This document shows positions 1,177 through 64,000 of a stretch of DNA of 64,000 nt, one piece after another (the stretch's first letter is position 1; each line of letters opens with the position of its first letter). The notes under the pieces were generated by a model. It made no database searches, had not been told where the DNA came from, and saw only the letters and a program-made list of their open reading frames with translations. The position numbers and the translations under genes are program-made. The DNA is from Apteryx mantelli (Eukaryota; Chordata; Aves; Apterygiformes; Apterygidae), in NCBI RefSeq assembly GCF_036417845.1, contig NC_090016.1, forward strand, positions 1 to 64,000, written 5' to 3'.

Positions 1177-23202
<22,026 letters not shown>

Positions 23203-31100: not shown

Positions 31101-34100
31101 CCAGGGAGCCGCTGGGCAGCCTCAGCCCCGAGGAGCGCGACGCCCGCACCGTCTTCTGCATGCAGCTGGCCGCCCGCATCCGTCCCCGCGACCTCGAGGA
31201 CTTCTTCTCCGCCGTGGGCAAGGTGAGGGGACCGCCGCGACGTCCCCGAGGCCGCCGGGATGTTCCCGAGGCCGCCGGGATGTTCCCGAGGCCACCGGGA
31301 CGTCCCTGAGGCTGCCGGGATGTTCCTGAGGCCACTGGGATGTTCCTGAGGCCACTGGGACGTTCCTGAGGCTGCTGGCACGTTCCCGAGGCCACCGGGA
31401 CGTTCCCAAGGCCACCGGGACGTTCCTGAGGCTGCTGGCACGTTCCCGAGGCCACCGGAGCATCTCTGAGGCCACCAGGGTGTTCCTGAGGCCACCGGGA
31501 CATTCCCGAGGCCACCAGGGTGTTCCTGAGGTCTCTGGGGCGTCCTCGAGGTTGCCGGGACGTCCCTGAGGCCACCGGGATGTTCCCGAGGCCACCAGGA
31601 CGTTCCTGAGGCCGCCAGGACTTTCTTGAGGTCACCGGGATGTTCCTGAGGTTGCCAGGGTGTTCCCGAGGCCACCAGGGTGTTCCCGAGGTTGTCGGGA
31701 CGTTCTTGAGGCCACCAGGGCGTTCCCAAGGCCGCCGGGATGTTCCTGAGGCCACCGGGACATTCCCGAGGCCACCAGGGTGTTCCTGAGGTCTCTGGGG
31801 CGTCCTCGAGGTTGCCGGGACGTCCCTGAGGCCACCGGGATGTTCCCGAGGCCACCAGGGTGTCCCCAAGGCCGCCGGGACGTTCCTGAGGCCGCCGGGA
31901 CGTTCCTGAGGCCACCAGGGCATCCCTGAGGTCACCGGGTTGTTCCCGAGGCCACCAGGACGTTCCCGAGGCCACCAGGACGTTCCTGAGGCCGCCAGGA
32001 CTTTCTTGAGGTCACCGGGATGTTCCTGAGGTTGCCAGGGTGTTCCCGAGGCCACCAGGGTGTTCCCGAGGTTGTCGGGACGTTCTTGAGGCCACCAGGG
32101 CGTTCCCAAGGCCGCCGGGATGTTCCTGAGGCCGCTGGGACGTTCCCGAGGCTGCCAGGACACTCCCGAGGCCACCAGGACGTTCCCGAGGCCACCGGGG
32201 CATCCCCGAGGCCACCAGGGTGTTCCCGAGGCCACCAGCACGTTCCCAAGGACACCAGGACGTTCCCGAGGCTGCCGGGACGTTCCCAAGGCCACTGGGA
32301 AGTTCCCGAGGCCACCAGGGTGTCCTCGAGGTCTCTGGGGTGTTCCTGAGGCCACCTGGGTGTTCCTGAGGTCTCTGGGGCATCCCCAAGGCCACCAGGA
32401 CATTCCTAAGGACACCAGGACGTTCCCGAGTCCATCGGGGCATTCCCGAGGCCACCAGGGTGTCCTCGAGGCCACTAGGGCATCCCCGAGGCCACCAGGA
32501 CGTTCCCAAGGACACCAGGATGTCCTTGAGGCTGCTGGGACGTCCCTGAGGCCACCAGCGTGTTCTTGAGGCTGCCAGGACGTTCCTGAGGCCACCGGGA
32601 CGTTCCTGAGGCCACCAGGGCATCCCCGAGGCCACCAGGACATTCCCAAGGCCACCAGGGTGTTCCTGAGGCCGCAGGGACGTTCCCGAGGACACCAGAG
32701 CGTTCCCGAGGCCACTGGAGTGTCCCCAAGGCCACCAAGGTGTTCCCGAGGCCACCGGGACGTTCCTGAGGCCGCTGGAGCATCCCCAAGGCCACCAGGA
32801 CGTTCCTGAGGCCACTGGGACATTCCTGAGGCCACCAGGACGTTCCCGAGGCCACCGGGGCCGTCGTTGGGCCACCGCTTGGCCTGGAGCCGCCTCCTGG
32901 TGCCTCCTCTGGGGCTCCCATCCCGTTTCCGGGACCGGCAGCCACCTCGTGTCACCCTCGTGGTCTCCTCATACCTCCTTGAGGCGTCCGGTCACCTCCA
33001 TGGGGCCACCGAGTGCTTCGTGTCCCCTCTCAGGGTCTCCTCGTCTTCTTCTTGGTGTCCCCAGCCACTTCGTGTCCCTCTCACGGCGTTTTGGGGTCAC
33101 TTGGGCAGCTCGAGGTCCCATCACGGTCACCCTAGTTTGCTCCCCAGGGTCACCGTCACCTCTTTGGAGCCGTTGTCCCCTCCTGGGGCTCCCCGGCCAC
33201 CTCGTGTCCCCCTCACCGTCCTCCATCCCTTCCCTGGGACCATTGGCCACCTCCCCAGGGCCACCAAGTGCCTCGAGTCCCTCCTGGTCGCCCCCTTCCA
33301 GGACTTGTGTCACCCTCATGGTCCCCGGTGTCTCCTGGTCGCCCCCTTCCAGGACTTGTGTCACCCTCGTGGTCCTTGGTGTCTCCTGGTCGCCCCCTTC
33401 CAGGACTCATCACTCTCCGGGTCTTGGTGTCCCATCATGTCCCCGCTCCGTAGGGCCACCGGCACCTTCGTGGGGCCACCTGGGCGGCCTCCGGGTGCTC
33501 CCGGTGCCCTCCTGGGGGGGCCTAGATCCCCCGTCTGTCTGTCCGTCCATCCCTGGTGGGCGGCCAACGTCCCCGTGTCCCCCGGCGCAGGTGCGGGACG
33601 TGCGGATCATCTCGGACCGCAACTCGCGGCGCTCCAAGGGCATCGCCTACGTGGAGTTCTGCGAGATCCAGTCGGTGCCCCTGGCCATCGGCCTCACGGG
33701 CCAGCGCCTCCTCGGCGTGCCCATCATCGTCCAGGCCTCCCAGGTGGGTCTGCCGTGGGGCTGGGGGAGGTCGCCGTGGGACTGGGACACCCTAGGGTGA
33801 TCAGGGATGGGATGAGGTTCTGATGGGGCAGCGTCTCCTTGGGGTGTCCATCGTTGTCCAGGTCTTCTGGGTGGGCTGCCGTGGGGCTGGGGGAGCTGCT
33901 GGGGGGCTGGGGGAGGTCACCATGGGGTGGGAAAGCCACCGTGGGGCTGGGGGAGCCGCCGTGGGGCTGGGGCACCCCGGGGTGGTCATGAACATGAGAT
34001 GGTTGTGATGGGGCAGCATCTCCTTGGGGTGTCCATCATCATCCAGGTCTTCTGGATGGGCTGCCATGGGGCTGGGAGGGCTGCCATGGGGTTGAGGAGG

Positions 34101-37100
34101 CCGCCGTGGGGCTGGGGAGGTCGCCATGGGGCTGGGACACCCTAGGGTGATCAGGGATGGGAAGAGGTTCTGATGGGGCAGCGTCTCCTCGGGGTGTCCG
34201 TCATCGTCCAGGCCTCCCGGGTGGGTCGCCATGGGGCTTGGGGAGGTCACCATGGGGCTGGGGGAGCCGCCGTGGGGCTGGGGCACCCTACGGTGATTGG
34301 GGATGAGGGCTGGTTGTGATGGGGCAGCATCTCCTTGGGGTGTCCATCATTGTCCAGGTCTTCTAGATGGGCCGCTGTGGGGCTGGGGGGTCTGCCGCGG
34401 GGCTGGGGGAGGTCACCATGGGGGTGGGAAAGCCACCGTGGGGCTGGGGGGGGTCGCCATGGGGCTGGGACGCCCTAGGGTGATCAGGGATGGGAAGAGG
34501 TTCTGATGGGGCAGCGTCTCCTTGGGGTGTCCATCATCATCCAGGTCTTCTGGATGGGCTGCCATGGGGCTGGGGGAGCTGCTGTGGGGCTGGGGGAGGT
34601 CACCATGGGGGTGGGAAAGCTGCTGTGGGGCTGGGGGAGCCGCCATGGGGCTGGGACACCTTAGGGTGATCAGGGATGGGAAGAGGTTCTGATGGGGCAG
34701 TGTCTCCTTGGGGTGTCCGTCATCGTCCAGGCCTCCCGGGTGGGTCGCCATGGGGCTTGGGGAGGTCACCATGGGGCTGGGGGAGCCGCCGTGGGGCTGG
34801 GGCACCCTACGGTGATTGGGGATGGGGGGTGGTTGTGATGGGGCAGCATCTCCTTGGGGTGTCCATCATCGTCCAGGTCTTCTAGATGGGCCGCTGTGGG
34901 GCTGGGGGGTCTGCCGTGGGGCTGGGGGAGGTCACTGTGGGTTGGGAAAGCTGCTGTGGGGCTGGGGGAGCTGCCGTGGGGCTGGGCACCTGCTGTGGGG
35001 CTGGGGCACCCCAGGGTGGTCATGAACGTGAGATGGTTGTGATGGGGCAGCATCTCCTTGGGGTGTCCATCATCGTCCAGGTCTTCTGGATGGGCTCCCA
35101 TGGGGTAGGGGGGAGCTGCTGTGGGGCTGGGGGAGGTCACCATGGGTTGGGAAAGCTGCTGTGGGGCTGGGGGAGCCGCCATGGGGCTGGGACACCCTAG
35201 GATGATCAGGGATGGGAAGAGGTTCTGATGGGGCAGTGTCTCCTTGGGGTGTCCATCATCATCCAGGCCTCCCGGGTGGGTCGCCATGGGGCTTGGGGAG
35301 GTCACCATGGGGCTGGGGGAGCCGCCGTGGGGCTGGGGCACCCTACGGTGATTGGGGATGGGGGGTGGTTGTGATGGGGCAGCATCTCCTTGGGGTGTCC
35401 GTCATCGTCCAGGTCTTCTGGATGGGCCGCCGTGGGGCTGGGGGAGCTGCCGTGGGGCTGGGGGAGGTCACCATGGGGCTGGAGGAGGTCACCATGGGGC
35501 TGGGAAAGCCGCCGTGGGGCTCGGGGAGACGCTACGGGGCTGGCAGGGCCCTTATGGGGCTTGGAGAAGACCATGGGACTCAGTAGGGTGGGGACGCCAC
35601 GGGGTTGGAGGACTCCCACGACCTCGAGGCGGTTCTACGGCTGCCGTGGGGCCGAGGGAGGTGCTGTGGGGCCGGGGCGGACGCCGTGGGGCCCCCCGAC
35701 CCCCCCCTTACACCCGTCCCTCTCTCCAGGCGGAGAAGAACCGGCTGGCGGCCATGGCCAACAACCTGCAGAAGGGCAGCGGCGGCCCCATGCGCCTCTA
35801 CGTGGGCTCCCTCCACTGCAACATCACCAAGGAGATGCTGCGCGGCATCTTCGAGCCCTTCGGCAAGGTGACCCGGCGCGGGGGGGGACGCGGTCGGGTC
35901 ACGGGGACGTCGTCGGGGGGCCACGGGACCACGGGTTGGGCGGTGGGAGCGGGGTTGGGGGGGCGCGTAGGGAGGTGGTGGCGTCTCCAGGAACAGCCCC
36001 CGGTTGGAGGGCCCCAGGGACAAGATCGGGTCATGGGGACGTGTTTGAGGGACTTAAGGCGGCGTTTGGGTTCTGGGGACCCAATTTGAGGGACCCAGGG
36101 AGAAGATGGGGTCGTGGGGATGAGCTTGAGGGACCTAAGGAGACGTTCGGGGTCTTGGGGACCCAGTTTGGGGGAACGTAGGGACAATATCAGGTCGTGG
36201 GGACGTGTTTGAGGGACCTAGGGAGACTTTTGGGTCTTGAGGACCCAGTTTGAGGGACCCAGGGACAAGATTGGGTCATGGGGACGTGTTTGAGGGACTT
36301 AAGGCGGCGTTTGGGTTCTGGGGACCCAATTTGAGGGACCCAGGGAGAAGATGGGGTCGTGGGGATGAGCTTGAGGGACCTAAGGAGACGTTTGGGGTCT
36401 TGGGGACCCAGTTTGGGGGAACGTAGGGACAATATCAGGTCATGGGGACGTGTTTGAGGGACCTAGGGAGACTTTTGGGTCTTGAGGACCCAGTTTGAGG
36501 GACCCAGGGAGAAGATCAGGTCGTGGAGACATGGTTGAGGGACCTAAGGAGGTGTTTAGGTCTTGGGGAGCCAGTTTGAGGGCCCCAGGGACAAACTTGG
36601 GTCGTGGGGACGTGGCTGAGGAAACTAAGATGCCGTTTGGGTCCTGGGGACCCAGTTTGAGGATCTTGGGGATGAGATGGGGTCATGGTGACATGTTTGA
36701 GGGACCCAAGGAGACGTTTGGGGTCTTGGGGACCCAGTTTGAGGAAATACAGAGACAAAATCAGGTTCTGGGGACGTGTTTGAGGGACCTAAGGAGACGT
36801 TGGGGTCTTGGGGACCCAGTTTGAGGGAACATAGGGACAACATCAGGTTGTGGGGACGTGGTTGAGGGACCCAAGGAGACGTTCGTGTCCCGGGGACCCA
36901 GTTTGAGGGAACATAGGGACAAAATCAGGTTGTGGGGACGTGGTTGAGGGACCCAAGGAGACGTTCGTGTCCTGGGGACCCAGTTTGAGGGAACATAGGG
37001 ACAACATCAGGTTCTGGGAACGTATTTGAGGGACCCAAGGAGACGTTCATGTCCTGGGGACCCAGTTTGGGGGAACGTAGGGACAATATCAGGTTCTGGG

Positions 37101-41319: not shown

Positions 41320-42140
41320 CCCCTTTAAGAGGGGGCTTAAAGGGGCGGGAGCTGGGCGCGACAAAGAGGCGCCTGCGCCTTTAAGGGCCTCCTTAAAGGG
41401 GAAGCGCTTCAATCCTGGGCCCTTAAAGGGGAGGAGGCAGCTTCCCCCTAGGAACCGCCTTTAAGTTGGTGACTTTAAGACGCTCCCGTTTAGTGTCAGG
41501 AGGGCAAATAAAGCTGCTCCTAAATCGCCGGCAGATGGGGCAACACGGCCCTGTCCTTAAAGGGGAAGGGGCTTCGACGCGCTCTTAAAGGTGAGGAGGA
41601 GGAGGAAGGGCGAAGCGTGGCGGCGGCGGGGGGGGGGGTAAAACCGGCACATGTCCTCCGGATAAAAAAAAAAACGAGCCCTTAAAGGGGCGAGCGGAAG
41701 CGCCGCCTCAGGGGGCCTGTGCCTTTAAGCGCCGCTTAAAGGGGAGGCGCGGACAGGAGGACAAAAATAACCGGGGGAGGGGGTTCAAAAAACAGTGCGG
41801 GGGACAGAAAAGCGGCCGGTGGTCGCCGCGCCTTTAAAGCTTAAAGGCGAAGCTGCCTTAAAGGGGCGGCGCCAGCCGGAGTCGGCGGCTCTTAAAGGGG
41901 AGGGGGGGGTCGCCCTGCTCTTAAAGGGGCAGCGCCACGTGGCTCTTAAAGGGGCAACACCCCCCCCCATTCTTAAAAGGGGTGGGTGCCCCCCAACTCT
42001 TGGGAGGTGTGGGCCCACCGGCCTCTTAAAGGGGCAGCACCACCCAGCTCTTAAAGGGGGCAACGCTAGGACCCACCACTCTTAAAAGGGCAACGCCACG
42101 CCCACACACACACCCACGCCCACCCACACCTTAAAGGGCC
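41320..42140. repeat. CTTAAAGGGG motif cluster in the presumed REM2 3' UTR
   Basis: More than twenty copies of CTTAAAGGGG or its complement CCCCTTTAAG at irregular spacing, in both orientations. Two more pairs lie near 43310 and 43375-43405. Confidence 0.75.
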
Positions 42141-44711: not shown

Positions 44712-59188
<14,477 letters not shown>

Positions 59189-62582: not shown

Positions 62583-63357
62583 TCACTGGTTCTTACTGGG
62601 CGGCGCTGGGGAGCCCTTGGGGCGCAGGCGGGTGCTGGGGGCGGCCGGGGGGGGCTTCGGCCGCGCTGCCGCCTCCAGGCTCTGGCTCAGCTGCACCGCC
62701 CGCCGCTGCCGGGGGGGGGGGGAGGGAGTCAGCGGGGCCCAGGCGTCCGGGGAAGGGGCCCAGGTGTCCGGGAAAGGGGCCCAGGTGTCCGGAAAAGGGG
62801 CCCAGGCGTCCGGGAAAAGGGGCCCAGGCGTCCAGGGAAGGGGCCCAGGTGTCCGGGAAAAGGGGCCCAGGCGTCCAGGGAAGGGGCCCAGGTGTCCGGG
62901 AAAAGGGGCCCAGGCGTCCGGGAAAGGGGCCCAGGTGTCCGGAAGAAGGGCCCAGGAGTCCAGGGGAGGGACCCAGGCATCCGGGAAGGGGCCCAGGTGT
63001 CCAGGAAGGGGCCCAGGCGTCCGGGGAAGGGCCCAGGCGTCCGGGGAAGGGGCCCAGGCGTCCGGCCCCCCCCCATTACTCACTGCAAAGGCCTCATTCT
63101 CCTGCAGCCGCCGAATTTGTCCCTTCCACAGCGGAGCCGGACGACCATCTTGGGGGGGGGGGGAGGAAAGAGGGGCGTCAGGGCCCAGGCGTCCGGGCGG
63201 CCCCCACCCCACCTCCGAGGGGGGGGGGAGGGGGGAGCAGAGCCCCCCCCCCCCCCATGAGGGACCCAGGCGTCCGGGCGGCTTCTCACCCACGAAGGAC
63301 CAATCCGGGAGGTCGCGCAGGGGCCCGTAACCGGCCGTGCTGGGGGCGAAGCCCTGC
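62583..63357 (-). CDS. MRPL52: Mitochondrial ribosomal protein L52 (3' part, last three exons)
   Basis: A subunit of the large mitochondrial ribosome (mL52). Three coding exons are visible on the - strand: 63357-63290, 63148-63084 and 62705-62583 (TGA at 62583-62585). They read GYGPLRDLPDWSFV, then DGRPAPLWKGQIRR and LQENEAFA, then RRAVQLSQSLEAAARP and an end at LRPKGSPAPPSKNQ. This matches the mammalian core GYGPLTELPDWSY / [22 protein letters not shown]. Splice sites and phases agree, with donors GTGAGA and GTGAGT. The last exon encodes 40 residues, shorter than the about 49 of human because the glutamine-rich helix is reduced and a proline-rich stretch stands in its place. The first exon with ATG and mitochondrial presequence is not in the window and probably lies past 64000. 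Confidence 0.92.
62730..63070. repeat. GCGTCCGGG minisatellite in MRPL52 intron
   Basis: About fifteen copies of GGGGCCCAGGCGTCCGGGAA, a unit near 20-21 bases, lying between the last two MRPL52 exons. Confidence 0.92.
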
Positions 63358-63374: not shown

Positions 63375-64000
63375 AGAATGAGGGGCCCAGGCGTTCGGGG
63401 AGACCCGGTCCATCCCCATCCCCACACACCCAGGGGGCCCAGGCATCTGGGGAAGGGGCCCAGGTGTCCGGGGAAAGGGCCCAGGTGTCCGGGAAGGGGC
63501 CCAGGTGTCCGGGAAGGGACCCAGGTGTCCAGGAAGGGGCCCAGGCGTCCGGGAAGGGGCTCAGGCATCCGGGAAAAGGGCCCAGGCGTCCGGGAAAAGG
63601 GCCCAGGCGTCCGGGGAAGGGGCCCAGGCATCCGGGAAAAGGGCCCAGGCGTCCGGGAAAGGGGCCCAGGTGTCCGGGAAGGGGCCCAGGCATCCGGGAA
63701 AAGGGCCCAGGCGTCCGGGGAAGGGGCCCAGGCATCCGGGAAAAGGGCCCAGGCATCCGGGAAAGGGGCCCAGGTGTCCGGGAAGGGGCCCAGGCGTCCG
63801 GGAAAGGGGCCCAGGCATCCGGGGAGGGGCCCAGACGTCCGGGGAAGGGGCCCAGGCGTCCGGGAAAGGGGCCCAGGCGTCCGGGAAGGGGCCCAGGTGT
63901 CCGGGGGAGGGACCCAGGCGTCCGGGAAGGGACCCAGGTGTCCGGGGAAGGGGCCCAGGTGTCCGGGGAAAGGGCCCAGGTGTCCGGGGAAGGGGCCCAG
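63375..64000. repeat. GCGTCCGGG minisatellite at right edge (MRPL52 intron 1)
   Basis: About twenty-eight copies of GGGGCCCAGGCGTCCGGGAA running off the window. Same family and orientation as 44205-45760 and 62730-63070. Confidence 0.92.

Follow-up and report, generated by a model that had tools for sequence, protein, structure and literature searches.

Why would an intron be filled with copies of the end of the exon that precedes it? This question is raised by a stretch of 64,000 nucleotides from Apteryx mantelli (RefSeq assembly GCF_036417845.1, contig NC_090016.1, positions 1 to 64,000 of the forward strand; the whole stretch is called the window below), in which one intron of RBM23 contains ten diverged copies of the end of its upstream exon, each running on into the copied donor site. 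We conclude that the array very probably arose by exon stuttering, a form of tandem expansion named by Hron et al. in 2026 (PMC12954441).

Ten copies of an exon end in RBM23

The source of the copies is a coding exon on the plus strand (33591..33743) which encodes the end of RRM1. It was located by tblastn with RBM39 and by its AG/GT borders, has a stop-free translation matching the RRM1 of RBM23 (PDB 2cq4), and ends at the true donor CAG/GTGGGT (here and below the slash marks the exon-intron border). The RBM part scores higher against the RRM1 of RBM23 (2cq4, 195 bits) than against RBM39 (7zap, 173 bits), and judged by these matches the gene with the array is RBM23, not RBM39. The intron that follows (33744..35729, plus strand), of which 92% is covered by tandem repeat, is RBM23 intron 6 in our numbering, the exon model being incomplete in the RS-domain part.

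All ten copies lie 3' of the source exon and on the same strand, and each comprises approximately the last 51 exon bases followed by the first intron bases; about ten units with an exon-like part of 45-50 bases had originally been predicted, which is close to what was found. Four copies keep the GT after the exon-like end: copy 1 (33820..33875) reads TGG/GTGGGC with its first intron-side base at 33871, and copies 3 (34170..34225), 6 (34689..34744) and 9 (35225..35280) read CGG/GTGGGT with the corresponding base at 34221, 34740 and 35276. In the other six the GT is lost and replaced by AT, as TGG/ATGGGC in copies 2 (34005..34060, border at 34056), 5 (34503..34558, 34554), 8 (35039..35094, 35090) and 10 (35371..35426, 35422), and as TAG/ATGGGC in copies 4 (34316..34371, 34367) and 7 (34835..34890, 34886). 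The similarity continues across the exon-intron border into the intron in every unit, with both sides present each time, and exon base -1 and intron bases +2 to +5 are identical in 10/10 copies, in agreement with the earlier proposal of an origin by duplication across that border. Peptides resembling LLGVSxIVQ, expected to be recognisable in several units, were recovered in five copies by tblastn.

In ungapped comparison with the final 42 bases of the exon, the copies have 32-37 matches, all ten in one register, while the next-best place in the intron has 20. The objection that the likeness is no better than that of shuffled sequence was checked with 1000 shuffled exon ends, and does not hold: the best of these reached 26/42, and none (0/1000) reached 30. 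Among 405 42-mers taken every 7 bases from the other exons of the window the best had 29/42 matches in the intron, showing that background likeness is high, yet below that of every copy. Local alignment of the last 40 exon bases gave a score of 56; the maximum was 26 among 200 shuffles and 23 among the remaining 29 placed introns.

The spacing along the array is 127, 185, 165, 146, 187, 186, 146, 204, 186 and 146 bases. Units 3, 6 and 9 are mutually 96-99% identical and share only 78-83% with units 2, 4, 5, 7 and 8, while units 5 and 8 are 95% identical and adjacent units range from 75 to 90%. That identity is higher within 3/6/9 and 5/8 than between neighbours indicates that copying of three-unit blocks accounts for at least part of the growth of the array.

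Decoy donors and the predicted consequences of their use

The pairing of the copied donors with U1 divides them along the same lines as their dinucleotides. The true donor pairs at -11.1 kcal/mol, the decoys at 34221, 34740 and 35276 at -10.4 kcal/mol and that at 33871 at -8.5 kcal/mol, with the six GT-less decoys at -2.7 to -3.5 kcal/mol; the 33 donors placed by hand in the window, including the true RBM23 donor, span -2.8 to -11.6 kcal/mol. The original prediction had several units keeping GT and decoy donors present in number. Decoys do exist, but a GT is retained in only 4/10, and the decoys at 34221, 34740 and 35276 are probably copies of one unit, since they lie in one and the same 96-99% identical unit type.

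Read-through past the true donor runs for 18 codons, VGLPWGWGRSPWDWDTLG, and then meets a stop at 33798-33800. As this stop is located 5' of all decoys, use of a decoy donor would give an early stop and no new RRM1 end. The suggestion of variant RRM1 ends is therefore not supported for the protein product of decoy donor use alone, which is what this reading of the splicing consequences covers; a pseudo-exon would also require an acceptor inside the units. Transcripts with such an early stop would probably be subject to nonsense-mediated decay.

Exon-edge copies in PRMT5 and elsewhere in the window

The window has a GC content of 66.9%, with 68% of it covered by tandem-repeat masking, and contains three plus-strand genes, PRMT5 (1177-23199), RBM23 (from 25379) and MMP14 (to 59185). 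Genes were identified by tblastn searches with approximate human protein sequences, and exon limits were adjusted manually to AG/GT borders. Joining the PRMT5 exons yields a 640-residue open frame which, beginning at residue 7 or 9 and continuing to its end, aligns to PRMT5 chains of known structure; its tblastn exon rows have 52-95% identity to the human query, except for the first (47%), which crosses an intron. Such identities would be low for a rodent such as a gerbil, and GC-rich introns full of repeats, together with MMP14 as a known hidden gene of birds, point to an avian sequence. The 30 introns placed in this way have a median tandem-repeat cover of 83%, and all counts refer to them. 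Outside the counts are introns at unplaced borders (RBM23 introns 1, 3 and 9, MMP14 intron 4), as well as any RBM23 exons beyond 40166 and the initial MMP14 exon, neither of which was located.

We used a shuffle test on the 60 borders of these 30 introns, and a test with exon 21-mers on the 24 introns of at least 300 bases (six shorter ones were left out). Exon-edge copies were found in 3/24, i.e. in RBM23 intron 6 and in PRMT5 introns 11 and 7. PRMT5 intron 11 (9729..16136, plus strand) is 6.4 kb in length, consists for 98% of tandem repeat, and contains 38 copies, identified with a fuzzy pattern, of the last 21 or so bases of the exon whose end is at 9728. These resemble the exon end GAACCCCAACGCCGTCGTCAC, with at least 17/21 matches in 24/38, and form two families, one of 9 copies close to the exon and one of 29 farther away. 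The dinucleotide following the copies is GC in 26, AC in 10 and GT in 2 (n=38); the pattern stops at the border and misses border-diverged copies, and the copy at 10301 comes from a second pattern that includes AC after the border, giving these counts a slight bias to AC. The main support for this intron comes from the 21-mer test, where its terminal 21-mer has 24 matching places, the most of all 3558 exon 21-mers; the shuffle test set its border apart less clearly, with 1/200 shuffles at or above its score.

PRMT5 intron 7 (6253..6746, plus strand) has the mirror arrangement, with four copies of the acceptor plus the opening 27 or so bases of the exon that begins at 6747. The exon-like parts begin at 6253, 6383, 6518 and 6633, all four directly after AG and with 26-27/27 matches, and the same four were recovered when AG was not required. 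The decoy acceptor at 6633 is identical to the true acceptor at 25/25 and 57/60 upstream bases, and is located 114 bases upstream of it, in frame and without a stop; use of any of the remaining three would shift the frame.

Four further borders gave few shuffles at or above their score, namely the MMP14 intron 1 acceptor (0 of 200), the PRMT5 intron 6 donor (1), the PRMT5 intron 10 donor (5) and the RBM23 intron 7 donor (6). None of these introns has a place matching 17/21 of the exon edge, and thus they were not counted as containing exon-edge copies.

We also reran the screen settings of Hron et al. 2026 (blastn-short, at least 20 bases, at least 42.1 bits, adjacent intron) on the plus strand of the placed exons and introns, without the authors' own script. 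This gave 12 matches in introns adjacent to the source exon and 2 in other introns, while the shuffled control gave 31 matches in 20 rounds with a maximum of 32.2 bits. Five matches had at least 42.1 bits, all of them in adjacent introns: four in PRMT5 intron 7, where 4/4 matches pass (48.1-54.0 bits) and begin at exon base 1 (3/4) or 4 (1/4), and one in RBM23, which is copy 3. PRMT5 intron 11 has no match under these settings, showing that arrays of short, diverged exon parts can escape this screen. Two of the 30 introns thus pass, compared with 3.4% of dot-chromosome introns in the published screen (PMC12954441).

Other repeats in the window have a different character. Arrays at 44815-45220, 62734-63065 and 63434-64000 flank MMP14 and have GGGGCCCAGGCGTCCGGGG as a common core, with unit lengths of 38 and 21 bases; being present on both sides of the gene, this motif occurs more widely than the exon-edge copies, which keep to one place. 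An unmasked segment at 41771-42082 has a recurring short motif reading LKG in one frame, and PRMT5 intron 16 contains an array of approximately 22 copies of a 28-base unit (22335-22936) with GCGGCCATCTTGG. The latter presumably resembles a YY1 site.

Origin of the arrays

The pattern is seen at an RBM23 donor, a PRMT5 donor and a PRMT5 acceptor, which we count in favour of exon stuttering. Hron et al. 2026 (PMC12954441) described 'sequence stuttering' on chicken dot chromosomes, with 'exon stuttering' as the special case where copies of one side of an exon, together with its donor or acceptor, recur through the intron. They reported 236 such introns in 115 genes, 190/236 on dot chromosomes, with exon parts of 20-187 bp (median 36) in 1-44 copies, a source not more than one base from the exon border in more than 90% of cases (which is typical and no requirement), and large differences in intron length between chickens. 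The arrays in Apteryx share with these the direct, imperfect copies of an exon edge and its donor or acceptor, arranged in tandem in the adjacent intron only, the repeat-filled introns next to intact exons, and exon-part lengths and copy numbers within the published ranges, although the main text of that study mentions neither RBM23 nor PRMT5.

Several observations weigh against this assignment. When 21-mers are compared, the RBM23 exon end matches its intron at 17/21 or better in 6 places (best 19), whereas some MMP14 21-mers do so in 12 (best 18), and 0.25% of the 3558 exon 21-mers attain 19/21 there. In the rerun screen only 1/8 RBM23 matches has at least 42.1 bits (48.1), five score less than the shuffled maximum of 32.2 bits and two equal it, and the passing match ends at exon base 151/153, two bases short of the border, which is because base -2 differs in this copy. 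The published introns are also mostly on dot chromosomes and vary in length between chickens (PMC12954441), while the locus here is known from one 64-kb sequence. An assembly artefact would count in the same direction, and the divergence among copies argues against it.

As many copied splice sites are damaged, it may be asked whether harmful sites were preferentially disabled after duplication, which would be compatible with exon stuttering. The loss of GT in 6/10 RBM23 copies and in 36/38 copies of PRMT5 intron 11 could be taken to point this way, but when all pairs of adjacent columns are considered, the GT pair included, an equal or lower share of intact copies is found for 24/55 pairs in RBM23 and 9/26 in PRMT5 intron 11. 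In addition, the losses track unit families and thus represent few independent events, and AG is kept at 4/4 acceptors in PRMT5 intron 7. With no excess loss at GT over neighbouring columns we have rejected selective disarming of the decoy donors, and consider it improbable.

Even less credible is a functional decoy array, in which the copies would bind U1 and regulate RBM23 splicing through slower intron removal or unproductive transcripts. The four GT decoys do pair with U1 within the range of true donors, and read-through does run into a stop, but the GT is lost in most decoys, and the neighbouring PRMT5 has the same kind of arrays, so no cause specific to RBM23 is needed. Finally, chance likeness of a GC-rich, low-complexity repeat to the exon end, for which the 29/42 reached by other exons and the 12 places of MMP14 21-mers might speak, is negligible given ten copies in one register above every shuffle and the confinement of matches of at least 42.1 bits to adjacent introns.

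A separate idea, that the exon has drifted at silent sites since the array was founded and that the copies keep its older state, was tried and is unproven. In RBM23, third codon positions make up 5/7 sites at which at least 9/10 copies differ from the exon, versus 1/11 sites at which 1-8 differ (Fisher p = 0.013), but this split was chosen after seeing the columns; at sites differing in at least 90% of PRMT5 intron 11 copies, third positions were 4/6 in the 9-copy family, 1/3 in the 29-copy family and 1/3 in all 38.

Under exon stuttering, a segment comprising approximately the last 51 RBM23 exon bases, the donor and the first intron bases would have been duplicated into the intron, and then have expanded with a G-rich spacer, partly as three-unit blocks; we infer this order of events, while the shared border, the unit order and the block structure are observed directly. 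Such an expansion would probably have been driven by slippage or by misaligned conversion, in DNA that is very rich in GC, prone to form G-quadruplexes and part of a small chromosome. Simple G-quadruplex motifs are present in all three introns (plus/minus strand: 6/1 in RBM23 intron 6, 3/4 in PRMT5 intron 7 and 1/100 in PRMT5 intron 11; raw counts without a control), with the strand not the same across the three arrays. Their presence is in line with Hron et al. (PMC12954441), who name, as speculation, G-quadruplex-associated replication stress or conversion during meiosis. Most likely the copies are not under selection for function, while the exon would be kept intact by purifying selection. 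Under exon definition, the true donor may be favoured by its position beside the true acceptor, and the decoys with GT may give occasional early-stop transcripts.

Tandem arrays or tandem duplication have also reportedly been connected with intron gain by Zhuo et al. in 2007. In accounts of intron gain by tandem duplication (the potato RdRp case, PMC4974935; PMC2812944) a sequence containing or activating splice sites is likewise copied in tandem, whereas here an existing intron expands and no new intron is shown. MMP14 is among the chicken genes reconstructed in the study of hidden GC-rich avian genes by Hron et al. 2015 (PMC4539667), the available part of which mentions intronic repeats in such genes and does not describe exon-edge copies. 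A literature search for exon fragments with donor sites inside tandem repeats returned no paper, and in a search on RBM23, PRMT5 and dot chromosome the term 'dot chromosome' appeared in none among the matches listed.

These introns add base-resolution examples of a phenomenon named in 2026, with donor and acceptor copies both within 64 kb. What is new here is the higher-order structure of the arrays, the state of the copied splice sites, with the core dinucleotide kept in 4/10 (RBM23), 2/38 (PRMT5 intron 11) and 4/4 (PRMT5 intron 7) copies, and the in-frame decoy acceptor in PRMT5, which if used would insert 38 residues into the protein. Potential alternatively spliced transcripts from exon stuttering are already pointed to by Hron et al. 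2026 (PMC12954441). That exon-edge arrays create heritable variation in splice isoforms, for instance via the decoy acceptor at 6633 in PRMT5 intron 7, seems unlikely at present, but if copy number differs between individuals, the set of possible PRMT5 isoforms would differ as well.

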